From the NCBI GenBank assembly GCA_019459285.1, contig JAIBEL010000058.1, forward strand, positions 1-64,000: DNA of 64,000 nucleotides, read 5' to 3'. Position numbers and translations under genes: made by a program. Shown here one piece after another: positions 48,201-63,781 of this stretch. Under the pieces are notes generated by a model, which was not told the DNA's origin, ran no database searches, and was given only the letters and a program-made list of their open reading frames with translations. Positions within the stretch are counted from its first letter, which is position 1, and every line of letters starts with the position of its first letter. The DNA is from Rhizobium sp. (GTDB lineage: Bacteria; Pseudomonadota; Gammaproteobacteria; Burkholderiales; Thiobacillaceae).

Positions 48201-49150
48201 GACACCTTTACGGCCCGCCGATAGGCGGTTCCCATTTGCTGCATCAAGGCGAAGCGCGGGTCCTTCGTGGCACCGGGCACGTAGCGGGCAGCGAGGCTTT
48301 CAAGGCCGTTGGGTGTGATGGCCAGAGCCCTCACCACACACGGCTTCGTCAGCAAGCGATGGCTTTCGAGGAGCCGAACGGTCGATTCCGCATACCCGGA
48401 AGCCTGGCAGAGCTTATAAAAAGGCTTGTTGTCAGAGGTCAGTGCGCCGAGATGGGACTTGATGTCTTCCGAAAGCTCAAACGTCTCTTCCTGGATTTCG
48501 GCAGACACACGGGCAAATACGCTGCGCGAATCCACCAAACGGCGGTGTCGCATCAACTCGTCGAGATGGGCGTCTTCCTCGCGGAAATCCCCCACGCTGG
48601 AAGGCATGTCGTAGGAATATTCCTGGACCAGCAGGTGGTCTTCCTTGTGGTTGCCCGACAACCACAACAGGAAATCCGCTCGCGCCGGCATGCCCTTGTC
48701 GGCGAGCGCCGGGTCGACCTTTCCGCCGAGGCCCAACAGATTGTGGAGTTCGGAGCAGGCCTTGTCGCGCTCAGCTTCATAATCAGCGGGGCCCGGAAGG
48801 GTCAAAGGACACCAGAGCGCGCGAACGGATAGCGCCTTGTTTTCCAAAGGCTGGGTCAAGCGCTTCAAGTACTCGCGCATTGCCGTGTAGCCGAGCCCGT
48901 AGGCGACCGCCGACAGATGCTGCAGGGCGGAGTGGGTCAGTTCCTTGACCGTTTCGTCGATGATGTCGAGTTCGCGAACGACGGCACGTTGAACATGGCT
49001 GACCTTGGTGTCGCGCCATGGCCGGAGATGAGGGTCGTCCAGCTGGATGAGCTCGTAATCGGCAAGACACCCAAGTACGCCGCGCTTCACAAAGATTTCG
49101 TAGGCCTGTCCCCAAATCACGGCCTGCTGCTGGAATGTCAGCTCGTCCAT
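45296..49150 (-). CDS. Large SF2-type helicase/ATPase of the island
   Basis: A 1284-residue protein. Walker A GNPGIGKTT lies at about residues 447-455, Walker B-like VVVMVDELAG at about 657-666, then SSGARGVSFPK (about 886) and motif VI QLIYRGRG (about 917), an SF2 helicase set reminiscent of the DinG/Rad3 style. The N-terminal 400 residues are helical with no recognised domain; the C-terminal 350 are also unassigned. Its ATG overlaps the TGA of the 1032-residue gene by one base (TGATG), so both are translated together. Likely a DNA- or RNA-dependent motor of an anti-phage system; not assigned to a named one. Confidence 0.75.
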   Translation of the reverse strand: MDELTFQQQAVIWGQAYEIFVKRGVLGCLADYELIQLDDPHLRPWRDTKVSHVQRAVVRELDIIDETVKELTHSALQHLSAVAYGLGYTAMREYLKRLTQPLENKALSVRALWCPLTLPGPADYEAERDKACSELHNLLGLGGKVDPALADKGMPARADFLLWLSGNHKEDHLLVQEYSYDMPSSVGDFREEDAHLDELMRHRRLVDSRSVFARVSAEIQEETFELSEDIKSHLGALTSDNKPFYKLCQASGYAESTVRLLESHRLLTKPCVVRALAITPNGLESLAARYVPGATKDPRFALMQQMGTAYRRAVKVSDGDEPELANKVEEVFQQILTRLPKALRAGLKGLREMPKPGEDYHLEFEESVPGFANPMQQYSMDQAVALVEDAPELDEYLGSPAKEAIGRALDELRPGNAEVALRDLHAAAIVAGMNAATPGKLNVLALEGNPGIGKTTAVTRYLAKQQSGYLFLYVSPRVVINRDVTEKLARKNGEPSGILTVTTNAQIISAAERYHRALVEEGKAEKRHIDGAVIADGVQDLVRPQRSSVLVLSPEDEHEIEKRHAGSRLAKTTLSENEDMVEERSLLGVLSAMSSTTRELLTLNPGVNRAVLTAALQGFREKGNGRNTIESLSQLFRETRDGRAKTEERRQFSERMPTVVVMVDELAGDGAGAPFVHAVAQWLKKEFIEPFGDDDSPFTVILVVSDASLGNEVVLNRYLNAGNNTPDKVLVSKSHGSKPFSLAVTRVPLGGGKPKVLHVMTNSYPASALNIRYRVNLSSVRVTEKQPGLMETARQAVRRVADETLLNNAAAEIRKAVAAGANQVIYFAQDKLFLRDLREILKGESGLGLNPNNVQILDSSVPGSRRKKLIEEETRDSIKVFLMTSSGARGVSFPKTDWIIASVPRFNIESALMEIAQLIYRGRGMYRNEHGEEVSGDNVPRHLVMLVDDFMIHEEALDKRQWLRQSLDLMTLLVMLRATIFTRITGDAGLRQSLALVPVGAVGLDELLSLMSQYVTQFLAEADTFVRGHGNTDLAGLVSKARTNCYELFSRFRLQGLSKKGSDGSTFVKPEEAREFFDRAASALVPLLSEKEGRPSMPSNIYFAGPMVLESWADFDKQEVFSFEGHRTSVDEMSSKLFMQLKDIDQNTALPSSLRIPAANLQRLLARDKPGAANEFSTLKLLKSPNTWIALPTAYAQFVRPVRVHDDKPKGLKEPEMWREALGRALSASNAVMPAIPRYDGMPWVAGVGQTNPLKFDVVFDDRYFMASNELNLLNALLLVEDSL

Positions 49151-52100
49151 CAGGCTTCCTTGTTCTTATGCAGGACCTTGGTCACGTGAGCCAGCAGAGC
49201 GGGGAAAGACAGAAGCACCGAACCCTTGCCCCGACGCTGCATCACTTCCAATTCACCCGCGGCTGCGGCAGTACCGGGCATGGCCCACCCAAACGGGTCG
49301 AGCACCGGCAGCACTTGGGATTTAGAGGCGGCGCGCTCGCTTTCCAGGTAGTGAATGCCACGCAGTACGCCCAGGATGGATTCCCGGACAGCCTTGCCCT
49401 GTGGGGTCGTACCGAGCATGTTTTGGCGGACGATTTCGCTCCATTCAAGGTCGGACAGCCGCTGCTCGATGTCGAAGAAATAGGTGCAGAAGCCAGACTG
49501 CGGCCGGCCATCTTCGGTAATGACGGCCAAGGTGGCAAAGGTGTATATCGGCTGAAGCCCTCGTATCAGCTCGCGTTCGGCCTGTTCATACATCCGCTGG
49601 TGGTCGGAAAACGTCACGACCTCAAACGCACTCTCTGACGCACTCCGGGTATGCAGGCGTGTTGCGGGGAATACATCCCGGCGCAGCGGGTACAAATAAA
49701 CATCCGGAAACTTGGTGGAGGCTGCCTCAAGGAATTCATGCGTGCCGTGTGGGGAATGCCTTTCGGCCGCGCGGCCAATGTGCCTGTTGCCGTAGTGGTG
49801 AGACAGTAGGACGATGTGCTGGTAACCCAAAGACCGGAGGCGGGCTATCTCTTCTAGAATGAGCTCCGGCTCACGGAAGGACTTTCTGTTGTCGACTAAC
49901 CGCGATTGCATGTGCTCCGCGCGGAGCGTCATCGAATCTCCAACACGGTCTGCACAGAAGGTCCGCGAGATAAACAGGAATCCATCAGCATCCGGGTGTT
50001 GCGGATGCACGTCGCAGGGACGTGTGACGTAGGACAGCACGGCCACCTTGTCGAGACTGCCCCCAATCGTAGTGACCATCGGGAAGCTGCCTTGCATCGC
50101 CAGCAGCGAATTACGTTTGCGGAACTGGACCGTACTGCTATTGCCTTGGGTGTGGAAGCCCTGCATTTTGACGAGCAGCTCCCGGCCTAGCGCACGCTCA
50201 ATCGCCTGACACGCTGCATAAACCGCCGCATTGCCGTTGGTCGGCTCGGACTCCTTGCCTCCAGGCTGTAGCCGTATCAAATACATCGCCAGATTTTCCA
50301 TTCCGGCAATGGCGCGGCTGCGGCGTATGAGGGCCCAAAGGGACAGATAGGTGAGCAGCGCAAATGCGGCGCAGCCGGCAGTACGAAGCTGCTCGAAGGT
50401 GGCTTTCTCGTCACCCGATGCGCGTTTGAGCGTAAGTGAGCGGACGTCGTATTCGATGTCGACGCCACGGCCCGCGTCAAATTTCACAGCCAGGGTGTCT
50501 GCAGGCTGCCAGGGTTCGCCTTTGGGCTGAATCAGGGGCACGAAGCGCACGGGCAGCACGGGCTGCTCCAGGTTGCGCACCATCCGTACTTCATGGCGCT
50601 CACCTGTAGGGGTGAGGGAACGTTCCATCAGGTGCGTTTCCACCTTATAGGAGGCCAGCGCGCGCACTTCGCTCGGTGTGTCGGTAATGGTCAGATGCTG
50701 GAACCAGGTGATGTTGTCGTTGCCGGAGTCGTTCTTGACCAATATCTCCGTGCTCTTCGACGACATCGCCCGCAGGGCGGCCCAGTCAATGGCCCCTTGG
50801 TGAACCGCCACAAAAAACTTGTCGGCTACCCGGTTCGCCGCATCCACGAGTTTTGTGGACTTGCTCTGAAGGACACGAATCAGGGCTTGTGAGAGGCCGG
50901 TCATGACAGACTCCCGCGCCCTCAGCTCGTCAATGAGTTTGCGTATCGCGGCAACTGGGTCGTCCTTTAGCTCGGTGGCAATTTGCTTGGCTAAGGTGTC
51001 GATAGGCTCGACGGTCGGCGTCTCCATCGAATCGGGAATGACCAGCCGCAAGAAAACCAATCTGGCAATCGATGGGCCGGCAGCGACATCGGGCCCGGGG
51101 TTTTCCAGAAGCCACTCCTCAATTCGGTCCAGGCGAGTGGCGAATGCGGACTTTCCGGTCTCGGGGTTATTCCCGTTTACCCGGAACCGATATGACACCT
51201 CTCGCTTTGTCGCGAATCCGTTTTCGGGGTCGACGCGCGCTTCAAACAGTTGAACCGACCACTCGGCCCATACAGGCAGGCAAGTAAAGAAGGTTGCTTT
51301 GCGTATCTGGTCTGCGAGGTCGATATTGCTGCGTTGGCCATAGATAGTGCTGACTTCCAGGGGCATCGCCTTGCCGGACGAGCTGGCGTAGGTCTTGAAT
51401 GCTTCAAGCACGTGGCTGACGTAGGCATCTAGTCCGGGCTTATTGGAGTGCTGGGCGACGGCTTCCATCAGCTTGAATGTCACCTGGAGCCGCACGCGCG
51501 ACAATGCTTCGTCGTCGAGGAAGTCGAGAAAGCGGCGAATCTGACTGCCAGGTTGCTCCCGCTGGGCGCGGAGGCTGCTGATGATGGGTTCAATCTCATC
51601 ATCGTCGAAGTCGTCCTTCCTGAGCCGGTTTTTGATGCCGTCCGTCAGCCGGTCGAGCCAGTCGCGGCCTTCAACGGTTTCAACCGCCGACAATACGCGT
51701 GCGACGTCATGCTCATGCTCGGCCGCCGTACGGTCTGCAGCTGCGAAGCCGATGGGGACCATCGACGCCGTCGCGGGCGCCTGGGGAAGCTTCACTTGAA
51801 GTCGGTCGGCGAGGGTTTGTAGTGCCAGCTCCGCAGAAGCAGTCAACAAATTGGGAAGCTCAGATTCAGGCAAGGCGGCATCAAGCTCACGTGCAATTAT
51901 CTCCTGGAGCTTGACGAGGGCTGCTGTGGTTTTAGCCTCGGTTCCAGGAAGGAGCCGGCCGCCTACCTTTGCCGATGTGCCGCGAGGTGGCAGCTCTAGG
52001 TCGCGAAAGAACCCCACTTCCGAGCCGGCTGCCAAGTCACTCCTGAATTCAGGCAGCTTGTACAAGCGGCGCAGGGTGTCGATAAGGTTGAGGTGTAACC

Positions 52101-52248
52101 GCCCGTCCTGATACCGGACTAACCCGCCAGGCTCGGTTCCTTCGGGTTTGAGTGCCTGGGTGAGTAATTCACAAAGGCGAGACAGATTGACAGAAGGGGT
52201 GCGTGCGCGCGCAGAGATACTGGCGCCACCCAAATTGGATGTGCTCAT
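49150..52248 (-). CDS. 1032-residue protein of unknown family, partner of the helicase
   Basis: A large soluble protein with no motif that I can name. The N-terminal third is helical; the middle is beta-rich (NITWFQHLTITDTP ... FVPLIQPKGEPW). The C-terminal 300 residues alternate strands and helices, with VAVLSYVTRPCD, ILEEIARLRSLGYQHIVLLS followed by HHYGNRHIG, and RRDVFPATRLHTR. This alternation could be an RNase H-like/PIWI-like or nuclease fold, but this is a guess. AAAGGAG precedes the ATG. It is first in the two-gene operon, upstream of the helicase, and follows mcrC on the same strand. Confidence 0.65.
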   Translation of the reverse strand: MSTSNLGGASISARARTPSVNLSRLCELLTQALKPEGTEPGGLVRYQDGRLHLNLIDTLRRLYKLPEFRSDLAAGSEVGFFRDLELPPRGTSAKVGGRLLPGTEAKTTAALVKLQEIIARELDAALPESELPNLLTASAELALQTLADRLQVKLPQAPATASMVPIGFAAADRTAAEHEHDVARVLSAVETVEGRDWLDRLTDGIKNRLRKDDFDDDEIEPIISSLRAQREQPGSQIRRFLDFLDDEALSRVRLQVTFKLMEAVAQHSNKPGLDAYVSHVLEAFKTYASSSGKAMPLEVSTIYGQRSNIDLADQIRKATFFTCLPVWAEWSVQLFEARVDPENGFATKREVSYRFRVNGNNPETGKSAFATRLDRIEEWLLENPGPDVAAGPSIARLVFLRLVIPDSMETPTVEPIDTLAKQIATELKDDPVAAIRKLIDELRARESVMTGLSQALIRVLQSKSTKLVDAANRVADKFFVAVHQGAIDWAALRAMSSKSTEILVKNDSGNDNITWFQHLTITDTPSEVRALASYKVETHLMERSLTPTGERHEVRMVRNLEQPVLPVRFVPLIQPKGEPWQPADTLAVKFDAGRGVDIEYDVRSLTLKRASGDEKATFEQLRTAGCAAFALLTYLSLWALIRRSRAIAGMENLAMYLIRLQPGGKESEPTNGNAAVYAACQAIERALGRELLVKMQGFHTQGNSSTVQFRKRNSLLAMQGSFPMVTTIGGSLDKVAVLSYVTRPCDVHPQHPDADGFLFISRTFCADRVGDSMTLRAEHMQSRLVDNRKSFREPELILEEIARLRSLGYQHIVLLSHHYGNRHIGRAAERHSPHGTHEFLEAASTKFPDVYLYPLRRDVFPATRLHTRSASESAFEVVTFSDHQRMYEQAERELIRGLQPIYTFATLAVITEDGRPQSGFCTYFFDIEQRLSDLEWSEIVRQNMLGTTPQGKAVRESILGVLRGIHYLESERAASKSQVLPVLDPFGWAMPGTAAAAGELEVMQRRGKGSVLLSFPALLAHVTKVLHKNKEA

Positions 52249-52476
52249 CGGTCAAAGCTCCTTTCTTGGCAGCTACGCCACTTCACCCACGGGACGACCA
52301 TGCCGCGTGAGCGGGTTTTAAAAACTCTGAAGTAAGTATAACCACACCCGAGTCAGGTTATCCACAGGCTGAGAAAAGGTGAGCTCTTATCTGGGGAACG
52401 GCATCTATCTATCGCTAGCGGCATATAGCGAGCGCTTGGGATGCAACGTCGACGCGTTGCCCGAGTGTTCTATGTA
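52249..52476. promoter_or_regulatory. Upstream region of the large two-gene operon
   Basis: 228 bases between mcrC and the 1032-residue gene hold an AT-rich stretch at about 52315-52345 suited to a promoter, and one exact DnaA-box match TTATCCACA at 52358-52366. An inverted repeat CGCT/AGCG lies near 52414-52432. No gene seen. Confidence 0.35.
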
Positions 52477-53766
52477 CTAGGCGACGGTTGCCGCAGACGA
52501 TTCAAATTGCAGAATCGAGCTCAATTGCCCTGGGACCGACTTGAGGTCGCTCAAGTCCAGGGTCGCTACGCGAATGCGAGCCGCACCGCCTCCCGTCCAG
52601 GATTTCAGTTGATAGCTAGCCCGGATGCCAGCCGTGGGACCCATCCCAGCGTGATGCGGGTAAACGAGCACCACATCATTGCAGGCGTAGCAATTGGCGT
52701 AGGCATACATCTGGTAGAGGTCGGATTGGGACACGCCTTCCTTGGCTTCCTCGAGAGAAAGCTCCTTCCATTTGGTGTCCATAATCCACTGAGGCATGCG
52801 GTCCTTTAGGCCGACCACATCAGGTTTCATTGCGAAAACGTCTCGCTTGCTGGACTCGTCGAACGCTAAATATCTAATAGGCCCTTGGAGTGCCACTTGG
52901 TAGCCTTCCGGACGGAATACCCGCCGAGCAATGCGGCCGACGTATTCTTCAAATAGGCTGTTCATTTCGAAGAACAGGGAAAAGCCCTGGACGCCCCCGC
53001 CACTGACATCCGGCGGTGTGTTGGTCAGGAAGAGCTGAGCCAGTTTATATGCGGGTCGGTAGCGGTCATTCAGCCGGTCGAATGAGATGCGATGCCAGGG
53101 AAGGGCGTGGCGCGGCACGTCCGAGACCCCCTCGAAAATCAGCATCAACTCGGCAAGTTGGCGCTGGTTGGTCAGTTCCCGCGACGCCTTCAGCAATAGA
53201 CGGACTGCCGCTTTGAGAATCTGATTGAGCGGGTTGTCTTCCTGGAATTCGTCGAAGCGACAATAAAGCCGTTCTGGGTTGGCGGCATTCAGGCGAACTT
53301 GTTCCTTCACGCCTAGCTTGCCGCGTAATAGGGGAAGGTTTTCTTCACGGCCTTCGTAGCGCCTGACCAGGCCGCGATGTACCTGGGCAAATAGCTTGTC
53401 GCAGAAAAGACGTATAAGGACTTCCAGTATTCCGTGGGTCTGGGTCGCAACCTTGGCGACGTCCCCCTCGCTGATTTCTAGGTCTAAAGCGACAGATAGC
53501 ATCGCGACCAGGTTGCGGCGAATGGTTGTGTCGGCGATGCCTTCAATCTTGGGCAGCACCTCTACCGTGAGTCCGCCCGCCTGGGTGGCGCCCACGTATT
53601 GCTGGGCTGACAGGGTGGTCTCATTGACGAACTTGAAGATATCAAAGCCGTGCACCCGCTTCAGGCTGCGTAGAAGGACGGCTTGATTGGCGGTTATCGA
53701 AGGACGTGCGGGGTCCAGCTCACCGATATGGAGCTTGCCGAATTCCCGTACGGATATAAGGGGCAC
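52477..53766 (-). CDS. mcrC: McrC-type restriction endonuclease subunit
   Basis: The nuclease subunit of a type IV McrBC system that cuts modified DNA. The 429-residue protein has the McrC N-terminal region (ISVREFGKLHIGEL), the conserved LRGKLGVKEQ region, and the PD-(D/E)xK site in KPDVVGLKDRMPQWIMDTKWK (about residues 313-335: Asp, then Asp-Thr-Lys). Its start is GTG with AAGG upstream, 5 bases after mcrB. Confidence 0.9.
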   Translation of the reverse strand: MPLISVREFGKLHIGELDPARPSITANQAVLLRSLKRVHGFDIFKFVNETTLSAQQYVGATQAGGLTVEVLPKIEGIADTTIRRNLVAMLSVALDLEISEGDVAKVATQTHGILEVLIRLFCDKLFAQVHRGLVRRYEGREENLPLLRGKLGVKEQVRLNAANPERLYCRFDEFQEDNPLNQILKAAVRLLLKASRELTNQRQLAELMLIFEGVSDVPRHALPWHRISFDRLNDRYRPAYKLAQLFLTNTPPDVSGGGVQGFSLFFEMNSLFEEYVGRIARRVFRPEGYQVALQGPIRYLAFDESSKRDVFAMKPDVVGLKDRMPQWIMDTKWKELSLEEAKEGVSQSDLYQMYAYANCYACNDVVLVYPHHAGMGPTAGIRASYQLKSWTGGGAARIRVATLDLSDLKSVPGQLSSILQFESSAATVA

Positions 53767-53771
53767 AGGCC

Positions 53772-56255
53772 TTACCGGTAGATGTTGAGGTAGGCATCCA
53801 GGCTAAACGGGCCTTTTCGGACCCGGTAGCGCGGCCGCGCTTCATAGCCATCGGCGGTATTTTCGAGGCCCTTGGGTATGCCTTCGATTGTCTCAATGAA
53901 CTGGCCGGACTGGTCATTGAGCGCCAAGCGGACCTTTGACCAATCCTCATAGAAATACTCCTGCAAGAGCGGGATGACCTTGCGGCGGAAAGTGGCTTCA
54001 AGGTCTTCCAGCGTTCTGACATTGATGAAGTAGGCGTGGCCAATTGTGTGGTCTCGGTCATACAGATACTCAACGCGCTCGTTCAGCGCCTGAAGCATCG
54101 CAGTCAGGCCGACTCCATCAATGCTGACCCCTTGAAGGGTTTCAGGGCTGGGCTGCAGTTCCTCAAACTCAAACCGGCGACGCAGCGCGGTATCGAGCAG
54201 GGCAATTGAGCGGTCAGCGGTATTCATGGTGCCGACCACGTAAAGATTCGAAGGAACGCTGAACTCGTCCCCGGAGTATGGGAGCTTCACCGTCAATGCA
54301 TTTTCCTCACCTTCGCGCTTATCTGGCTCCAACAAGGTGATGAGCTCACCAAAAACCTTGGAGATATTGGCGCGGTTGATTTCGTCGATGATGAGGACAA
54401 ACGCCTGGTCGCCATTCTCTTGCCGGTCGCTGATGAGGTCTTCGAGCGTATCGAATTTGATGGCGTCGTTGTCGAGCCGATACAGGGTCGATTGCTGGAA
54501 GTTTTTCTCATAGATGTCGTCGACCGGACGATTGCCCTCGAAAACCGCCAGCCAGCGAACTGGACGCATCTGATGATAGGTGCCGGCAGCTCCAGCCTCC
54601 AGGTATTCGTAATCACCGATGACTTCGCCAATGGCGCGGAACGCCTTGTTACCTTGCGAGGCAACGATGAGGTCGCCATTCTTGACCTCATTTTTGAAGG
54701 TGCTGACGAAACGAACCTGGGAGTCGAGCTTTTCAACGTCATTGTGCTCGTCCTCGAGCTTCTTCCTGATTTCAGCAACAGTCGCGCATTCAGAGAAATC
54801 AACGTCGTCACCCCAGCCCAGCAGCGCGTAGCCGTTCGCAATGCATTCCTGGAAGACGCGGTTGCCTTCGGTGGTGCCGGCAATGCCAAATGACATCTTG
54901 TAGACGGTTCTGTCCTGCAGTGGTTTGCCCTGCAAGCCCGGTTTGACCAGCGTGCTGCGTCGGGCGGCGTCGCATACCTCCCGGAAAATGCCCGGGCGGA
55001 CACGGTAGGTGACCTGGCCATCCTTGGACTCGGGACGCAGTCCTTCCACAAAGTCCTCGTAACCATAGCTCTGGTGGAAGGTCACAAAGCTGATTCGACC
55101 TTCCTTTCTGAGCGCCTCGTATCGCTTCATAAGCTCCTGACGGGGCTGGCCTGAGTGACCATCACAGATTTCGACGGCGCGCTCAGCCGTTTTATAGGTC
55201 TTGCCGGTGCCGGGAGGGCCGTACAGGATGATGTTCATGCTTTGCGGGGGCTCATCAGTCAAAGTGGGTTGGGCCGCTGGTCGGACAGCCTCATCGTTGT
55301 GTTCAACGGTTGAGGGCGTCCCCTCGTAGGCATCACACAATGCCGTGAGTGCCTCCATGGTGGGGACATACAAGTTGTCAGCAGGGAAGCCCACATACAG
55401 CTTAGGCGCATGAGCATCCAGGCTATGAATCCGGGGTTCATCCTTGCCATATCGCCTATTCAGCGAGATTCCAGGGGCGAGTGATGGCCAATCACCTGGC
55501 TCAACAAAAACCGTTACCTTGCTTCCGGTACGTACCAGACCGATTTGCCGTCCCGTGTCCGTGCTAAACGCCGCCATATATTTGACGGGTTCCCTTAGAA
55601 GCTGAAAACGGTTCTGCAGGTAGGTCAGGGCGTCGTCCTGAGTAAGTTTCTGCGGCAATGTACTTTCCCATTGGGACCAGAGCTCGGAAGCGTATGCGAA
55701 GGGTGACGTGTCGCCACGCGATTGCATGAGCTGGGTGTAGAGCTCGGTATAGCTGGGGCGCGGGTTTGTTGTGTGGGCTAATGCCCTGAGGACTTCCAGT
55801 TTGTAGATGGGGAGAATGGCAAGGGCGGCGCGGTCCTGGTAGAGGAACGCTATCTTCCACTTTACCGCTTGCCCCAAATCAGCGTTCTCGATGGCCTGGA
55901 AATCACCGACTCTGGCAGCCTTCGCGACTTTGACTACCTCGGCCAGGACTGCTTTGAAGGCTTCCTCTGGCGTCTTGCCGTACTTCGCATACCAAGCGTA
56001 AATGTCTCCATACATCAATCCGCCTTCGCTTTTCTTGGCCTGGTCATCCGCGCGGTGATAGATGCCGAACTTGAAAGCGGAGCCACCCCAGATGGAACCC
56101 AGGTCCTCGGTTCTGCCTTCCAACCAGTTAGTGAAGGTGTTGCTGTCGCCGACTTTCGTGTACTGCTCAATGCGGAGTGAATCCAAAGTCTCCGGGGGCC
56201 ACTTTTTCAGGAACTCGTCCCACAGTTTTTCAGCGTTTTCTGGGTTTATTTTCAT
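53772..56255 (-). CDS. mcrB: McrB-type AAA+ GTPase with inserted EVE-like domain
   Basis: The motor subunit of McrBC. An N-terminal region of about 330 residues (two unassigned modules likely to read modified DNA) is followed by an McrB AAA+ core with Walker A GPPGTGKTYKT (about 343), Walker B VLIIDEINRANISKVFGE (about 620) and sensor GTMNTADRSI. Between Walker A and B an EVE-like module is inserted (about 468-565: GWGDDVDFSEC ... NGDLIVASQGNKAFRAIGEV), a base-flipping reader fold. I start at the ATG at 56255; a TTG two codons earlier is also possible. The 120 bases upstream are empty. Confidence 0.88.
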   Translation of the reverse strand: MKINPENAEKLWDEFLKKWPPETLDSLRIEQYTKVGDSNTFTNWLEGRTEDLGSIWGGSAFKFGIYHRADDQAKKSEGGLMYGDIYAWYAKYGKTPEEAFKAVLAEVVKVAKAARVGDFQAIENADLGQAVKWKIAFLYQDRAALAILPIYKLEVLRALAHTTNPRPSYTELYTQLMQSRGDTSPFAYASELWSQWESTLPQKLTQDDALTYLQNRFQLLREPVKYMAAFSTDTGRQIGLVRTGSKVTVFVEPGDWPSLAPGISLNRRYGKDEPRIHSLDAHAPKLYVGFPADNLYVPTMEALTALCDAYEGTPSTVEHNDEAVRPAAQPTLTDEPPQSMNIILYGPPGTGKTYKTAERAVEICDGHSGQPRQELMKRYEALRKEGRISFVTFHQSYGYEDFVEGLRPESKDGQVTYRVRPGIFREVCDAARRSTLVKPGLQGKPLQDRTVYKMSFGIAGTTEGNRVFQECIANGYALLGWGDDVDFSECATVAEIRKKLEDEHNDVEKLDSQVRFVSTFKNEVKNGDLIVASQGNKAFRAIGEVIGDYEYLEAGAAGTYHQMRPVRWLAVFEGNRPVDDIYEKNFQQSTLYRLDNDAIKFDTLEDLISDRQENGDQAFVLIIDEINRANISKVFGELITLLEPDKREGEENALTVKLPYSGDEFSVPSNLYVVGTMNTADRSIALLDTALRRRFEFEELQPSPETLQGVSIDGVGLTAMLQALNERVEYLYDRDHTIGHAYFINVRTLEDLEATFRRKVIPLLQEYFYEDWSKVRLALNDQSGQFIETIEGIPKGLENTADGYEARPRYRVRKGPFSLDAYLNIYR

Positions 56256-56381
56256 ATTCAAATACGGCTAGTTATTGTGGGTGCAGCCCCTTGCATGTCT
56301 GGCATGCCTCGCCCTCCCAAAAAGCTGTGCCTGCAAGACGGGCTGCTATCAGAAAGGCTATTCCAATATTCTGAGTGACTC

Positions 56382-57761
56382 TTACAGAACCGCCTCCAGT
56401 GCGGAAATCGCTTCATCTTCTGCACTAGTAGCAGCTGCGAACAGTTCCCAAGCAGTCTGAGCAGCCTTGCCAATCTCGATTGCCGCAGATGAGGAGCCGT
56501 ATGGGACGATAACTGACGACACGTCCGACTCGCTGAGAGCGTCTACTACCGACCCCGTGGCAAGGGATTTCAATTGGGCTTGTACAGGCCCCGTGGCACA
56601 GGCCAGGTAAACTAGGCCAGGGTGGACTCCGGGCTTTGGAACAACTCGATGAACGTGTCCACTCGCCGCCCAGCCTTGACGGTCATTAGTTACAAGTGCG
56701 CAATCTGCAAGGTTCTCTTCAGCTCTGCCATCCGCGGTAAGAAGTGTCATCCCCGTGTTAAGTCGAAACGCACTTGGATTCTTGAATGCAGTGAGGCTCA
56801 TTAGGCGCAGTGCTATAGGGCGATACTGAGATACATGTCGACCGCCCATCATCTTCACTCCATACCGTTCATCTTCCACGTAACTGGTCTTGTAACGGTT
56901 TGCCGGCCTTTGTACATCAGCAATTTCACTTAAACGGCATCCGCCTGAAGCGAGAATGCGCTCCCGCCATGTAGAGTAGCGAGGGGCTTGGGGTTCGGCA
57001 TCGAATCGGTCAGTTATATGCGAGCGATTTAGGGTAAAACGCCTTGCCTTTTCCTCAGGACGAAATTCGTCCTCCGCATTCTCCAATCCAAAAAGTCGCA
57101 GAAACATTTCTTTGGTTTCTGCGAGCAGCAGACGTGCGCGTTCCCTCTTCTCAAAGCCCTTCCGAAAATTAGTCGCGCAGAAGCTTCGAAGGTCTTCGTC
57201 GACCATTGGATATCGCAGCGCAGCAATTTTGTTCGCATCAGTATGGTCAATCACAGAACCGTTCATGTCTGTGCGAATCGTCGCTTGTCCATGGGCGGTG
57301 CTAAGAAAAGCTGCAAGATAGAAAAGCTCATCGCTTGGTTCAACGGCGATTCGCACCATGTCATGTGACATGGTGAACTGTTCGCAGAAGGTATCTGCAA
57401 TCGTAACTGGCCCGAGATTTCGCCCCGAACACACGATAAAAAGCCAACCACGCTTCATCTCCAGCCGCTCAAATTGCGAAACTTGGCTGCGACTTAGAGT
57501 TTTGTCAGACCAAGGTACATATCGAAACAAGTCATAGGGGACAAGTAAGGGTTTTCCATGCTCAGGGCTTGGTGCATAGACTCGGGAGAAAATATTTCCT
57601 GTCCAAATATTTTCCTTTCCAAAAGCATCACCAATACTTTGCATCGGCCACTTATTTGACCGCAACACCTCAAGAAAAGGATTCTGTCTAGACAGATGAA
57701 ACTTTGAGTCAAATCTCAAGGTCCCGTGCACATCTCGTGCTGTGATGCTCGAAATTCTCAT
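56382..57761 (-). CDS. hsdS: Type I-like specificity subunit HsdS
   Basis: A 459-residue specificity subunit with two target-recognition halves: the first (about residues 5-215) ends in a helical spacer (KGFEKRERARLLLAETKEMFLRLF), the second (about 260-455) ends in another helix (SAEDEAISALEAVL). It begins with RISSITARDVHGTLRFDSKFH, typical of HsdS from M-S pairs with fused nuclease. ATGA overlap with hsdM. The DNA target cannot be read from sequence. Confidence 0.85.
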   Translation of the reverse strand: MRISSITARDVHGTLRFDSKFHLSRQNPFLEVLRSNKWPMQSIGDAFGKENIWTGNIFSRVYAPSPEHGKPLLVPYDLFRYVPWSDKTLSRSQVSQFERLEMKRGWLFIVCSGRNLGPVTIADTFCEQFTMSHDMVRIAVEPSDELFYLAAFLSTAHGQATIRTDMNGSVIDHTDANKIAALRYPMVDEDLRSFCATNFRKGFEKRERARLLLAETKEMFLRLFGLENAEDEFRPEEKARRFTLNRSHITDRFDAEPQAPRYSTWRERILASGGCRLSEIADVQRPANRYKTSYVEDERYGVKMMGGRHVSQYRPIALRLMSLTAFKNPSAFRLNTGMTLLTADGRAEENLADCALVTNDRQGWAASGHVHRVVPKPGVHPGLVYLACATGPVQAQLKSLATGSVVDALSESDVSSVIVPYGSSSAAIEIGKAAQTAWELFAAATSAEDEAISALEAVL

Positions 57762-59779
57762 GCTACGTTTTCTTGTCGCATACGAGCGGGGGTTAGTTGC
57801 TCCGCCAACCAAAGATGATATGCCTCAGCAACAGCATCAAGCTCGTCATCAACGATTGGTTCTTTAACTATTGTCTCGATTTCATCAAATGTTCCATCCA
57901 GCTTTGGAACGCGATGTTTTTTTACTGTTTCCTGCAAAAGTAGGCTTCCATCAGGGGCTCGCTTGTGAATGGTGGCCCCGCGCTTGTTGTGGCCCACAGA
58001 ATCAGCGATTGCCATGAAAACGGGATAATCGCCATGCGTTTTTTCAGTTTCGCCAACACCCCATTTTCTAAGCAATACCATACTAGTCTGCGTGTCATTA
58101 CGTGGCTGAAAGAGGTCCCGATGCATGTCCACGACAGCAAGTAATTGAGCCTGCGCGAGAACGCGGTTGCGGAAATAGGCAAGCCCAGGATTGTTCAACA
58201 ATCCGTTAGGCAACACGATTGCCATGCGCCCTCCAGGTTTGAGAAATTGAAGGCAACGCTCAACAAATAGCACTTCGGGCGATTGACTAGATTGAAGAGC
58301 TGGTTTTCCGTCCTTTCCCACACGCCCGCTGAATCCATTAACGCCGTCGCCATCCCAAACCGCACCAACTTCGAATTGACTCAAAATTCTTGGGTCATCG
58401 ATGGTGATTTCCGTTCCAAAAGGCGGATTGGCAAAAATCACATCGACTGACCCCAGAAGCCAGGCGGGTGGCCCTTCTGCAGGCCAGCGGTGAGGGTGCT
58501 CAAGAGAATTACATTGAAAAAGATTGCCTGAGCCATCATTGTTCATCACCATGTTCATCTTTGCAGCGCGTACCAGGCTTGGGTTCAAATCAAGACCATA
58601 GACTTTCTTTGAAAGATATTCATATCGGTCACGAAACCATTCGGCTTGCTGCTCAGGAGAAGGGCCGCGTTTCGGCCAGCGCTTATGATGCTTGTCGTCA
58701 ATGGTGGCCAAGACATGGTTCATTGCAGTAACAAGAAACCCCCCTGTACCGCATGATGGGTCAAGAACTAGCTCCCCTGGCTGAGGGTTAATCATCTTTA
58801 CAGCCATGCGGCATGCATTGCGGGGAGTGAAGAATTCACCGCGGTCGCCACGAAGATTGCTGCCAACAACTTCCTCATAAGCAACGCCTTTTACATCTAC
58901 CGATGAGTCGAGTAGCGAGTACTGCTGCATTTCGCTTACAACGTAGGCGAGAGTGGCTCCGCTCATCTCAAGGCGTTCGTTGTCCTTGAAAATGGTTGGG
59001 TACTTTTTGAGTACAAGGTCCCGGAAAATCCGGTCTAGCCGCGATTTAACTCGGCCCTGCAAATCCATCGATGTTCGTTCACTCTGTGTGACATAAAACT
59101 CTAGCTTGTCATTCTCGGAGCGCTCATCTTCAATTTTACAAAAAATGAGCTTAAGTAGTTCCCAAAAAGCATCAGGCTTTTGGAGGCCTGAGCTACCCGC
59201 AATGTAATTGTGGCAACGCTTGAACGTAAACAGGAGGTTCTCACCTGTGGCAGCACGAAGGTGCTCACGAGTCGGAGCTTCAGCTTTCTTGGCTCCTTGA
59301 GGTGGGATGTCAATCGCCTCAATAAATGCGTGTTCGCCTTTTTGGTTGGTCTTGAAACAGCAGTCACGGTCGGTGCCGTTTGTCCACATTCCATGTTCGG
59401 CATTCAAACAAGCAGCCATATAACTCTTCAGCTGCTCAACACCGTCCGTCTTGTTCTCGCGCTTTATGCCTTCACGCTTGGTTTCGATAATTATTTGGAC
59501 ATTGTCCTGCGTGTGAGAAACATCGGGCGCAAAGATGGCAAGGTCGACTCGCTTGGTCTGTGACCCCACTTTTACCTTGAATTCGACTTCAATTTGTTCG
59601 CGCGGATAGCCATACTCGAGCACAAGGCTCATTTCTACGTTTTGCCTTACATACTCTTCCGGGGTGTCGTTTAAAAGCCTTCCTGTTATGAAGTCAACGA
59701 CTTTCCCGTCGGGAATTGCTTTCAGTTCGGCAGTGGCTATCCCGACGTTTACCATTTCTGACTTAATAGTTTTTGACAT
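57758..59779 (-). CDS. hsdM: Type I-like N6-adenine methyltransferase with nuclease-like N-terminus
   Basis: A 673-residue protein. The first 170 residues resemble the HsdR N-terminal nuclease domain: Asp79 in KRVDLAIF and Glu99-Thr-Lys101 in IIIETKREG form a PD-(D/E)xK-like site. The rest is an N6-adenine methyltransferase with motif I DPSCGTGGFLV (about 331) and NPPFG (about 446). No hsdR or translocase lies in the window, so methylation and cleavage may be combined in this protein plus HsdS, as in type IIG-like enzymes. Confidence 0.86.
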   Translation of the reverse strand: MSKTIKSEMVNVGIATAELKAIPDGKVVDFITGRLLNDTPEEYVRQNVEMSLVLEYGYPREQIEVEFKVKVGSQTKRVDLAIFAPDVSHTQDNVQIIIETKREGIKRENKTDGVEQLKSYMAACLNAEHGMWTNGTDRDCCFKTNQKGEHAFIEAIDIPPQGAKKAEAPTREHLRAATGENLLFTFKRCHNYIAGSSGLQKPDAFWELLKLIFCKIEDERSENDKLEFYVTQSERTSMDLQGRVKSRLDRIFRDLVLKKYPTIFKDNERLEMSGATLAYVVSEMQQYSLLDSSVDVKGVAYEEVVGSNLRGDRGEFFTPRNACRMAVKMINPQPGELVLDPSCGTGGFLVTAMNHVLATIDDKHHKRWPKRGPSPEQQAEWFRDRYEYLSKKVYGLDLNPSLVRAAKMNMVMNNDGSGNLFQCNSLEHPHRWPAEGPPAWLLGSVDVIFANPPFGTEITIDDPRILSQFEVGAVWDGDGVNGFSGRVGKDGKPALQSSQSPEVLFVERCLQFLKPGGRMAIVLPNGLLNNPGLAYFRNRVLAQAQLLAVVDMHRDLFQPRNDTQTSMVLLRKWGVGETEKTHGDYPVFMAIADSVGHNKRGATIHKRAPDGSLLLQETVKKHRVPKLDGTFDEIETIVKEPIVDDELDAVAEAYHLWLAEQLTPARMRQENVA

Positions 59780-59933
59780 GTTGGTTTTCTAAGTCTTTTA
59801 CAAAAAATGTCGAGTCGCTGAGTTGGGGGAACTGAGTCTTTTGGGGCGTGGTGTTGCAGCACCAAAGCGCGAGCGAGTATCGCATGACCAAGGCGATTCT
59901 TGTTTTGTGGCCAAATGACTTGTTCTCTGTACT

Positions 59934-60845
59934 TCAGCGAGGTTCGGTGGCGTCAGGTAGTAATTGTTGAATTTCAGCGGTGTTCTTCAGGACTATTTGC
60001 TGAACTACGGACGTGGTGTTGTCGTTATTAGAGAGTCCAAGCCGCTTGAGCGCATAGAAGAGAAGAGCTTGCCTGCACTCCAGTTCGACCTCCCCATCAC
60101 TCATGCCGTAGTCCAACTCAATCACTCGTTGATTAGCTTTTGCCAGTAAGGGATTCGGCGCCAATACCAATCTAATAATTCGGTGCCATGATTCGTCTGC
60201 GTCCCCACCGGGCCCCTGTTCTTGCGTGGGTTGAATGCCTAGGATGCGCGCTATTACAAAATCAAGAAACCGTTCGCGTGTCGTGCAGTAGGCACGGACG
60301 TGCCATCTGAAACCATCATAAGCGAGCGCGTGCGGTGCTATTACGCGTTCCTTTGGCTCTGGAGACGACATCGATTGATAAAGTATCTTGACGCTAGTTT
60401 GGCTCCGAATAGCACCAAGCAAGGCAATGAGGACTTCGGCTGATAGCGTCCTGGTGGGATTGGGGGTTGCAGCCACGGGGGGAGCCCATCCAATGAAGCT
60501 CAATTCTGGCTGAAGTACCTCAGTAACACGGGCCAGGAGTTCGGTTAGGTACCGCGCGGGCTCATTTGATGAATAGAGCGGCTTGAAATCTGGTGTGGTC
60601 ACGTAAACCCGCAAGCTGCGGTCATAGGCCACATTACCAGGTGCCAACTCTAGGTACTTGGCAATGTCGAGAGAGGCCTGGGGCACAGATATTCCAAAGA
60701 AGGCAATCAGGTCCCCACGGTTCAGCCTCCCATCCCACCTCAGTCGGAAGTCAATAAACTCAAGGCGTCGCTCGGGGCCCCATCTCGTAGAAGCGGGGGT
60801 GTCACCACGCGTCGGGTCTGAAATCAGGTCGTTAGCGGAATTCAT
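59934..60845 (-). CDS. WYL-domain transcriptional regulator (CapW/BrxR type)
   Basis: A 303-residue repressor-like protein: N-terminal winged helix (ERRLEFIDFRLRWDGRLNRGDLIAFFGISVPQ region), a WYL domain (KERVIAPHALAYDGFRWHVRAYC) that may bind a nucleotide or nucleic acid signal, and a C-terminal WCX domain. Such regulators (CapW, BrxR) control CBASS and BREX operons. It lies divergent to the CBASS genes, with a repeated site between them, and so most likely regulates them; it might also act on hsdMS, which follows on the same strand. Confidence 0.8.
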   Translation of the reverse strand: MNSANDLISDPTRGDTPASTRWGPERRLEFIDFRLRWDGRLNRGDLIAFFGISVPQASLDIAKYLELAPGNVAYDRSLRVYVTTPDFKPLYSSNEPARYLTELLARVTEVLQPELSFIGWAPPVAATPNPTRTLSAEVLIALLGAIRSQTSVKILYQSMSSPEPKERVIAPHALAYDGFRWHVRAYCTTRERFLDFVIARILGIQPTQEQGPGGDADESWHRIIRLVLAPNPLLAKANQRVIELDYGMSDGEVELECRQALLFYALKRLGLSNNDNTTSVVQQIVLKNTAEIQQLLPDATEPR

Positions 60846-60951: not shown

Positions 60952-61092
60952 ATGGCTCAACAACCCAGCAAGAAGACGGTGCGCCGGGATTCCGGGACCG
61001 GTCAATTCGTTACCAAGCGTTACGCCGAGACCCACCCCAAGACGACCGAAACGGAAAAGGTCAGAGTCCCTGTGAATCCCAAGCCTAAGTAG
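60952..61092 (+). CDS. 46-residue basic protein (DSGTG family) before the CD-NTase
   Basis: A tiny protein with GGAG upstream of its ATG: RRDSGTGQFVTKRYAETHPKTT is the core of a widespread small-protein pattern often misnamed a transporter. It lies directly downstream of the promoter and 98 bases before the CD-NTase. A role in the CBASS operon is not known; it might be a regulator or just a passenger. Confidence 0.6.
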   Translation: MAQQPSKKTVRRDSGTGQFVTKRYAETHPKTTETEKVRVPVNPKPK

Positions 61093-61190: not shown

Positions 61191-62414
61191 ATGAATATAA
61201 GAGAGACAACACAAGTCCAATTGGCTGCGGAAGCCGCAGCATTTCTTGAGCGTCTAGCTAGCGAACTTGACGTTTCCCCGCGCCGGTATGAGGAGGCAAA
61301 AAATCGCTACATATCTGTTGGTGATTGGCTCGGTCGAGACGAATCCTCACTAAAAGACCATTCACCTGAAGTGTATGTTCAAGGTTCCTTCCGCCTTGGC
61401 ACTCCAATCCGGCCGCTGAACGACGAGGAGCATTACGACATTGACCTGGTGTGCGAACTGGGCCTTAAGAAGGGCGCGTTAACCCAGCAAGAGCTCAAGT
61501 GCAAACTCGGCCATGAAATGCAACTGTATGCAAAAGCGCATGGCATGAAAAATGGGGTGTCCGAAGGAAGACGATGCTGGACCCTTGAATACGCAGACGA
61601 GGCTCAGTTCCATCTGGATGCCTTGCCAGCAGTTCCGGATGGTGAGGGCATGCGGCTGCAATTAGCTGAACGTCACGTCAGCTCGGACTGGGCAGACACC
61701 GCAATTGCAATTACTGACAACGAACACTCCAATTATGGGGTGGTGTGCCGTGATTGGCCGCACAGTAATCCTAAGGGGTACACCAACTGGTTCCGCAGTC
61801 GGATGAAAGTCAGCTTCGAGTCATTGCGGGCAGCAATGGCGTTGGAAGCGAAAGCCAATGTGGAGGACGTTCCGGCCTACAGGGTGAAAACACCATTGCA
61901 GCAGGCTGTCCAGATATTAAAACGCCATCGTGATGTCATGTTTGCAGATGATGCTGATGACAAGCCGATATCAATCATCATCAGCACACTTGCCGGCTTG
62001 TCATATGGCAATGAGTCAAATGTTGGGCACGCCTTGTTAACCATCCTGGCTAGTATGGATAAACACATCACCGTGCGGAATGGCGTGTACTGGGTTCAGA
62101 ACCCGACTGACCCCTTGGAGAATTTCGCAGACCGCTGGCAAACGCATCTTCAACGTCGTGAGAAATTCCTCCGTTGGCTTGATGCTGCCAGGGCGGATTT
62201 TGCTGAGCTTGCCGTACAAACAAACCGCGCTAGCCTGACTGCCCTCGCGACCACGCTGCTGGGGGGGGCGATTAGCTCAAGGGACTGCGGCAGCACTTGG
62301 CACGCCACGCATGATTGCCGAGTCACTGTTCAGCAAAGCGGCCAATGTTATCCGGGCCCCGCACAAGAAGGTTGCCCCGTGGCCTACCGTCAAGCAAGGA
62401 AACGTCAGAATTGA
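61191..62414 (+). CDS. CBASS CD-NTase (cyclic oligonucleotide synthase), frameshifted near its C-terminus
   Basis: The cyclase of a CBASS system, which makes a cyclic nucleotide messenger upon phage infection. The active site is intact: GSFRLGT (Gly65-Ser66), Asp83 and Asp85 in HYDIDL, and Asp143 in FHLDA. Up to about residue 356 the sequence is sensible; at a run of eight Gs (62261-62268) the frame slips, so the last 50 residues are nonsense in this frame. Removing one G joins the cyclase to the next frame (62311-62745), a C-terminal sensor domain. Either a phase-variable switch, a null allele, or a read error. Confidence 0.85.
   Translation: MNIRETTQVQLAAEAAAFLERLASELDVSPRRYEEAKNRYISVGDWLGRDESSLKDHSPEVYVQGSFRLGTPIRPLNDEEHYDIDLVCELGLKKGALTQQELKCKLGHEMQLYAKAHGMKNGVSEGRRCWTLEYADEAQFHLDALPAVPDGEGMRLQLAERHVSSDWADTAIAITDNEHSNYGVVCRDWPHSNPKGYTNWFRSRMKVSFESLRAAMALEAKANVEDVPAYRVKTPLQQAVQILKRHRDVMFADDADDKPISIIISTLAGLSYGNESNVGHALLTILASMDKHITVRNGVYWVQNPTDPLENFADRWQTHLQRREKFLRWLDAARADFAELAVQTNRASLTALATTLLGGAISSRDCGSTWHATHDCRVTVQQSGQCYPGPAQEGCPVAYRQARKRQN
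62261..62268 (+). repeat. Poly-G tract (8 G) at the CD-NTase frameshift
   Basis: Eight consecutive Gs directly at the boundary between cyclase and sensor reading frames. Seven Gs would give a single open frame through to 62745. Confidence 0.8.
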
Positions 62415-62745
62415 TGAGGCAATCATTTCTCGGAATGGCTATCGACCACAGCGTTTTCAATCTGATTCACAGCCGCTGCCGAAGCGTACATCCCTCACTT
62501 TTAAGGCAAAGACGGACGTTCCCGCTCCCTACGAGGTCTATTGGCAAGTGGTGAACACAGGCCCAGAGGCTGAAGCGGTGGCTGGCGGTTTACGAGGTGG
62601 TTTTGACGCTGGTTCGGTAGATAAGGGAACAGCTATCCGCAAGGAAAGTACGCTGTATGTCGGCACGCACACTATCGAATGCTTCATTGTGAAGAACGGC
62701 TATCTTGTGGCGCGGAGCGGTGCCTTCATCGTGAACATAGTCTGA
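62311..62745 (+). CDS. Detached C-terminal sensor domain of the CD-NTase (AGS-C-like)
   Basis: 144 residues from the first ATG, matching the C-terminal sensor module (adenylyl/guanylyl cyclase and SMODS C-terminal sensor, AGS-C) usually fused to CD-NTases: PHKKVAPWP, LTFKAKTDVPAPYEVYWQVV, LRGGF, THTIECFIVKNGYLVARSGA, and the ending FIVNIV. The same frame is open upstream from about 62260 with sense sequence (RLAQGTAAALGTPR), showing that the ATG is internal. It overlaps the frame above by about 100 bases. Not likely an independent gene. Confidence 0.75.
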   Translation: MIAESLFSKAANVIRAPHKKVAPWPTVKQGNVRIDEAIISRNGYRPQRFQSDSQPLPKRTSLTFKAKTDVPAPYEVYWQVVNTGPEAEAVAGGLRGGFDAGSVDKGTAIRKESTLYVGTHTIECFIVKNGYLVARSGAFIVNIV

Positions 62746-62761: not shown

Positions 62762-63781
62762 TTGAGAAAAATTCTTTCAATCGACGGTGGGGGCATCAAG
62801 GGTGTGTTCCCTGCTGCTTTCTTGGCAAAACTGGAAGAGGAGCTACCAGAGCCTATCGGACACTATTTCGACCTAATAGCCGGTACATCCACAGGCGGAA
62901 TCATCGCGTTAGCACTTGGTGCTGGTTATACAGCCAGGGAAATATTGGAATTCTATGAAACGTATGGGCCTGAAATCTTCCCGAGAAAAGGTCTGCTGAC
63001 GAAAGCCAAACATTGGTTAGGGGGAAAGCACGCCGCACATTCATTAGCCGCAGCGCTAGAGGCGCAGTTCGGGAACCGAAAATTAGGCGACAGCCTTACC
63101 CGTCTGGTGATTCCGTCACAGAACCTCGAAACGGGTAAGGTTTATATCTTTAAAACAGCTCACCACCCGAGATTTCAAGAAGACAAAAAGCGGAACATGG
63201 TTGATGTTGCGCTGGCAACGTCGGCTGCCCCCACGTATTTTCCCACCCATAAACTACCGGGCGGAACAGCCCTAATTGATGGCGGAATATGGGCGAACGA
63301 CCCTGCGGGGGTGGCTGCTGTAGAAGCGGTCGGTATTCTCAAGTGGGATGCTCAAGATGTGCAGATGTTAAGTCTCAGTTGTACAGCATCGCCAATAAAG
63401 ATGAGCCTCGCTCACAAGTGGTCCCTGGGTAAGCTGTACTGGGCCTCGAAGCTTCTTGAGGTGGTAAGTGCCGGGCAGTCCTCTGGGGCACAGGGCACTG
63501 CAGCCGTTCTGCTTGGCCATGAGCGCATTTCAAGGATTGCACCAAATGTTGCTGCAGGAGCATTCGAGCTTGATGACGTCTCCAGCATTAACAGACTCAA
63601 GGGACTCGGCGAGTCGGAAGCGCGAGAGGCACGTCCAAAATTGGAGCATTTTTTTAGACAACTGGCACCGCGATTCGAGCCTGTTGTTCCCGGTGGCACC
63701 GTAGCATGTGTTCAAGCAGAAAACAAAACGGGGGAGGTGCCCAGGTTTCGGACGCCCCCTCTTGAATACTTTTTCAAATAA
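62762..63781 (+). CDS. capV: Patatin-like phospholipase CapV (CBASS effector)
   Basis: A 339-residue patatin-type lipase that would destroy the membrane when bound to the cyclic messenger. DGGGIKG oxyanion motif (residues 8-14), nucleophile Ser43 in GTSTGG, and the catalytic Asp173 in LIDGG. The start appears to be TTG (62762) with AAGGA upstream. Follows the CD-NTase by 16 bases. Pairing of a CD-NTase with a patatin is the type I CBASS layout. Confidence 0.9.
   Translation: MRKILSIDGGGIKGVFPAAFLAKLEEELPEPIGHYFDLIAGTSTGGIIALALGAGYTAREILEFYETYGPEIFPRKGLLTKAKHWLGGKHAAHSLAAALEAQFGNRKLGDSLTRLVIPSQNLETGKVYIFKTAHHPRFQEDKKRNMVDVALATSAAPTYFPTHKLPGGTALIDGGIWANDPAGVAAVEAVGILKWDAQDVQMLSLSCTASPIKMSLAHKWSLGKLYWASKLLEVVSAGQSSGAQGTAAVLLGHERISRIAPNVAAGAFELDDVSSINRLKGLGESEAREARPKLEHFFRQLAPRFEPVVPGGTVACVQAENKTGEVPRFRTPPLEYFFK

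Follow-up and report, generated by a model that had tools for sequence, protein, structure and literature searches.

Near the right end of the window, by which is meant the whole stretch of 64,000 nucleotides analysed here, lies a CBASS cyclase gene (61191-62745) whose reading frame shifts at a run of eight Gs (62261-62268). The features of the locus are as follows, with the evidence for each in parentheses.

59934..60845, minus strand: CapW-like WYL transcription factor, upstream of the CBASS genes (Pfam WYL; phmmer to 7tb6 and 7tb5)
60952..61092, plus strand: unannotated ORF of 46 amino acids, putative member of the operon (80% identical copy before the same CBASS in genome G023)
61191..62414, plus strand: frame 1, CD-NTase core (about residues 8-362) and out-of-frame tail (PADLOC, Pfam, AlphaFold2, Foldseek)
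62261..62268, plus strand: eight-G tract, codons 357-360, site of the frame change (sequence; relatives aligned across the tract)
62269..62745, plus strand: frame 2, linker and Ig-like AGS-C domain, predicted to be folded from about 62356 (Pfam AGS_C, AlphaFold2, Foldseek)
62762..63781, plus strand: intact CapV-type patatin phospholipase, listed start TTG (NCBIfam CBASS_lipase, Pfam Patatin, PDB CapV chains)

Frame 1 is open from the ATG at 61191 to a stop codon ending at 62414, which corresponds to 407 amino acids, and frame 2 is open from 62239 to 62745 (ORF scan). Both frames match one and the same PADLOC cyclase profile of 509 positions, PDLC00770. Frame 1 covers profile positions 6-361 (E 2.4e-150) and the 62269-62745 region of frame 2 covers positions 370-508 (E 3.6e-52). 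Pfam assigns SMODS and DncV-like domains to frame 1 and AGS_C (PF18134, E 1.2e-28) to frame 2. When compared with the Acidovorax relative, frame 1 can be aligned up to residue 362 and frame 2 from the first residue after the tract, the counterparts of both being parts of a single Acidovorax ORF. Thus, the frame changes at the tract or within a few codons of it. Neither the cyclase gene nor the phospholipase gene contains any other homopolymer of eight or more bases. As judged from the sequence, the PADLOC profile and the relatives, the tract stands within the reading frame and its length decides the frame, as is characteristic of phase-variable loci. The first-pass annotation of this DNA had located the loss of frame at these eight Gs and had recognised a C-terminal domain in the next frame; the two frames that meet at the tract while covering one profile, and the AGS_C assignment, bear out both points.

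The product of frame 1 is modelled with confidence by AlphaFold2 at residues 8-362, and its tail, residues 363-407, has pLDDT values below 50. The eight Gs encode residues 357-360. Profile coverage and model together suggest that the catalytic domain would be whole before the tract, in line with the initial reading. The best Foldseek matches of this core are CdnG cyclases, and its best match by sequence among solved structures is a cGAMP synthase of 396 residues (9woo), at residues 20-344. Q64-G65-S66, D83 and D85 are invariant in 19 alignment rows; we take these residues to be the GS and DxD motifs of the CD-NTase core. With the NCBIfam cGAMP synthase model, the cyclase scores 60.1 against a cut-off of 150, and the intact copy of G023 is also below it, at 50.5. 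The AGS-C piece is modelled with confidence from about residue 30, residues 1-24 having pLDDT values below 50. Since the core is confidently modelled before the tract and AGS-C folds separately after it, the tract would be located in a disordered linker. For the AGS-C piece, Foldseek gives a single match under E 0.001, which is also the best one: the Ig-like AGS-C domain carried by the Pycsar protein EcPycC (9ard_A, E 4.2e-5). The likeness to Pycsar consists of this fold match and of weak PycC profile matches. However, the TM-score is only 0.49-0.57, and the core studied here resembles CdnG oligonucleotide cyclases. A literature search for papers pairing Pycsar with AGS-C found nothing; in one CD-NTase paper, the name AGS-C is applied to the helical lobe of DncV. 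On the models, the present allele would yield a core comparable in size to the natural short cyclases, followed by an out-of-frame tail.

The state of the gene in relatives is informative. The AGS-C piece was found in 10 of 20 fetched loci, and in all 10 it is in the same open frame as the core (tblastn with both pieces). These loci belong to G023, which is of the same genus, Acidovorax, two Achromobacter with matching sequences, Mesorhizobium, a Rhodobacter MAG, a Nitrospinae MAG, two Phaeobacter and Jannaschia. The first-pass annotation had regarded one fused protein as the normal layout, to be checked against homologues, and the comparison agrees with it. The other 10 loci gave no AGS-C match in this search; eight of them have ORFs of 386-435 amino acids, one (L037) has a long front extension, and the tenth is that of Comamonas C11, described below. 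Core-only cyclases occur naturally. ThiF and Mov34 genes mark type II CBASS loci. They are annotated beside short and long cyclases alike, so that the tail domain does not track the CBASS type. In the cyclase of the Comamonas C11 plasmid (L073:3950-4370), the AGS-C match stops part-way, near an annotated Tn3-family transposase, and the core is intact. In a tree of 28 cores, the copy of the window is sister to that of G023 (99/96), within a clade of six that also contains Acidovorax, both Achromobacter and Comamonas (100/99). The 16S gene of the host shows at most 90.1% identity to plasmid-borne copies, from Caballeronia and Burkholderia; taken together with the relatives listed here, this suggests a betaproteobacterium.

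Regarding the severed domain, the first-pass annotation had stated that frame 2 has no start codon near its natural beginning. This point has to be corrected, as an ATG is present at 62311, 42 nt past the tract and ahead of the folded part of AGS-C. It might be imagined that the locus encodes two proteins, a core cyclase and an AGS-C protein separately started at this ATG, which precedes the whole folded domain, the existence of natural core-only cyclases being in favour of such a division. However, no good ribosome site is seen by eye, the start lies inside the upstream frame, about 100 nt before its stop, and AGS-C is apart from the core in 0 of 10 relatives. A two-protein organisation is therefore scarcely credible.

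Sequence divergence was used to estimate the age of the break. The core is 68.8% identical to that of G023 and 67.9% to that of Acidovorax, the values for AGS-C being 69.0% and 72.0%, respectively. The pN/pS ratios are 0.230 (G023) and 0.256 (Acidovorax) for the core and 0.253 and 0.271 for AGS-C; in the control pair, G023 and Acidovorax, they are 0.353 and 0.335. Hence, the severed AGS-C has no excess divergence as compared with the core, and the pattern of substitutions indicates that this domain was under purifying selection until recently. The break would then be recent, reversible or artefactual, with no date attached to it because synonymous sites are saturated. The undecayed tail fits a mutation, a switch and a sequencing error equally.

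The presence of the tract was surveyed in 28 relatives, of which 27 were measured, one being left out for want of the anchor motif. Over at most 330 nt after the core motif, none of the 27 has a G run of at least eight near the site, the longest run being seven in one relative and at most five in the other 26. At the site itself (75 nt), the longest G run is at most five in 13 of 13 relatives. A conserved tract is thereby rejected for these relatives. Two candidate parallels were also discarded. The seven Gs in the linker of the Comamonas C11 cyclase (L073:4045-4051) correspond to the approximately one run of at least seven that base composition predicts in 27 linkers, and the eight Gs of an Acidobacteriota locus (L033) sit past the cyclase stop. 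As a separate observation, a short CBASS cyclase of genome G595 is preceded, at about 125 nt from its start and after the upstream ORF, by ten Cs (L103:1339-1348), and promoter-length variation is possible there.

These data bear directly on the idea, put forward in the first-pass annotation, that the tract is an evolved phase switch. In this model, slippage would toggle the population between full-length and core-only cyclase, and the switch would have been selected because an abortive-infection system is costly. Part of the argument stands: relatives are fused, the tail is undecayed and the length of the tract is in the mutable range. PMC4235727 puts G tracts of 6-8 in a mutable class and those over 7 in a hypermutable one, so that eight Gs stand at the border of the two. 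There is also a precedent. In PMC4365076, an eight-G tract in pglX is reported to phase-vary Pgl, a phage-defence system of Streptomyces coelicolor, the Pgl+ wild type having eight Gs and switching at 1e-2 to 1e-4. The two cases share a G8 tract inside a phage-defence gene. However, pglX is in frame with eight Gs, whereas here eight Gs break the frame, in a different gene family. What does not stand is any sign that the tract has been maintained: no measured relative has eight Gs, the single run of seven is elsewhere and of the kind expected from composition, and runs at the site are short in every relative compared. The genome moreover contains 22 other internal runs of exactly eight, its total being within the range of the genus (see below). 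On balance, an evolved switch is an unlikely explanation. Somewhat more doubtful still is its fuller version, a phase-variable CBASS toggling between an AGS-C-bearing form and a core-only form resembling the natural short cyclases, which would provide one population with differently tuned immunity. No phase-variable CBASS was found in the literature searched, a limited collection of papers.

It may also be hypothesized that transcript slippage or ribosomal frameshifting at the tract yields some full-length protein from the present allele. In favour of such recoding are the homopolymer found where the frame changes and the undecayed state of the frame that follows. However, no relative has the split (10 fused loci) or the tract (27 measured), and slippage motifs are, according to PMC3711429, usually runs of A or T. 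Recoding is thus very improbable.

G runs were then counted over the whole genome. Runs of exactly eight number 36: 13 lie no more than 300 nt from a contig end, and the other 23, including the tract of the cyclase, are internal. Among 31 genomes of the genus, there are 8-41 such runs each (median 25), and five genomes exceed the 36 found here. With coding-frame scoring, the best frame is the same before and after the run in 14 of the other 22 internal cases. In the remaining eight, the coding signal is weak or lacking on a side or the two strands tie, and none is a clear two-frame break on one strand. Systematic breakage at G8 runs is thereby rejected, though by a weak test: the scoring relies on training with host genes and failed to flag the cyclase, whose true frame came second on the left and first on the right, so that it argues only faintly for the cyclase being exceptional. 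By a cruder measure, 12 of the 22 runs are spanned by an open frame of at least 300 nt on both sides, a figure limited by the long chance open frames of a GC-rich genome. Runs of nine or more amount to 62, of which 48 are within 300 nt of a contig end, four internal and 10 on contigs for which no length was available. Poly-G at contig ends is up to 39 long (for instance C17:7732-7769, C18:6296-6372 and C7:46188-46274 of this draft, G000) and is probably a two-colour Illumina artefact. An internal run of ten Gs (G000:C5:93273-93282, L069) has a weak coding signal in different same-strand frames on either side.

Because of the long contig-end poly-G, G counts in this assembly merit a check against the reads. 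The first-pass annotation had itself named a sequencing error and a fixed null mutation as alternatives to a switch. A sequencing or assembly error, the true tract being of another length and the gene intact, would be in keeping with a draft of 74 contigs bearing such poly-G and with the pN/pS ratios, by which both halves look functional. However, the tract is far from the ends of its 84,954-base contig, and the other internal G8 runs do not show clear breaks, an argument tempered by the failure of the scoring to flag the cyclase itself. Error is a rather improbable explanation.

A recent mutation remains the preferred reading, and it is favoured by the fact that broken cyclases are not rare. 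A cyclase match occurs in 5 of 299 related genomes, own included, two of the five being in this genus, and an order-wide search gave a match in 17 of 399 genomes, own included. Among the copies found, that of G331 is reduced to a middle fragment of the cyclase and that of G460 to the final 39 residues of AGS-C and a stop, neither being near a contig end; G463 has a weak cyclase match with an internal stop. A literature search on broken cyclases gave no paper mentioning CBASS. In viral contigs, one relative was found, and no contig with the same flanks and any tract length.

The neighbouring genes allow the system to be classified. The adjacent effector, the phospholipase at 62762..63781, scores 271.7 bits on NCBIfam CBASS_lipase (cut-off 200), matches Pfam Patatin and PDB CapV chains, and is intact by length and profile. 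The WYL protein at 59934..60845 matches 7tb5 (phmmer, E 6.6e-78) and 7tb6, 'S. maltophilia CapW' (E 3e-76, residues 18-296), and matches the BrxR structure 7t8k more weakly (1.8e-44). No E1/E2, JAB, HORMA or TRIP13 family was found by Pfam in the neighbours scanned, some small ORFs of the island being outside the scan. CD-NTase core motifs, an adjacent effector and neighbours free of these ancillary families are among the attributes of a type I CBASS. Another is a full-length cyclase able to make its signal; here, the core is complete by prediction and AGS-C is out of frame. The arrangement in which CapW precedes the CBASS genes on the other strand has been described (PMC9122588), and the locus shares with known CBASS that have a CapV phospholipase and a CapW regulator a cyclase, a CapV above cut-off and a CapW homologue so placed. 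It differs from them by a cyclase that is broken at G8 and scores below the cGAMP synthase cut-off. Among the 10 AGS-C cyclase loci searched, within limited flanks, this phospholipase was found only in G023 and a CapW match only in L029; the gene set is thus not conserved with the cyclase.

The 46-amino-acid ORF at 60952-61092 has no Pfam or NCBIfam match. It is present in 2 of 60 genomes, both with the cyclase, the copy of G023 being located at L079:11511-11636 on the minus strand, and it may be a small defence-linked gene or a leader. It also has plasmid matches (L123:6001-6087 and L122:6001-6120): in a Methylobacter plasmid, the match lies between a type I restriction gene and DUF4917, and in a Bradyrhizobium plasmid, before a DUF3892 gene. 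To the left of the CBASS, the minus-strand block 45296-60845 carries a defence-like McrBC component, an AAA protein, a helicase-like protein and an N6 methylase with an HsdR-like N-terminus, together with weak matches to specificity subunits. To the right, Tn7-like transposition genes occupy contig C23 at 64399-69451 (L080:1399-6451), with TniB, TniQ and a 912-amino-acid protein containing a Mu/rve transposase and a sub-threshold TnsA-like part. GC content falls from 32 kb on. The defence island may be cargo of a Tn7-like element; as for transposon ends around it, only inverted matches of 11-12 bases were found.

The computations show directly that the frame changes and where, that relatives have the fused form, that the core is predicted to fold completely and that the tail is undecayed. 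The reading that accounts for these findings with a reasonable, though far from full, degree of confidence is a type I-like CBASS, made of a cyclase and CapV and preceded by a CapW-like regulator, in which slippage at G8 has recently shifted the frame of the cyclase, within the disordered linker that joins the catalytic core to the Ig-like AGS-C domain. The present allele would produce a foldable core deprived of AGS-C. This core is most likely either inactive or unable to sense its trigger, because a cell expressing a permanently active one together with an intact CapV would be expected to die. However, repression by CapW could mask a permanently active core. Since the lesion lies in a G8 tract, it could in principle revert by slippage. 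Against this reading stand the single assembly, with one genome per species, and the long G runs gathered at contig ends (48 of 62), in view of which an assembly error retains some probability. The natural occurrence of core-only cyclases speaks against the presumed inactivity of a core without AGS-C. Altogether, the locus would represent a CBASS of known kind, with selected phase switching possible but unproven.

Abortive-infection systems are costly when they misfire. If true, a switchable CBASS cyclase would let a genome carry one in a genetically reversible manner, in addition to repression by CapW. An allele lacking AGS-C would make the role of this domain directly testable. If the lesion is merely a recent mutation, the locus would represent one more defence gene being lost in place.
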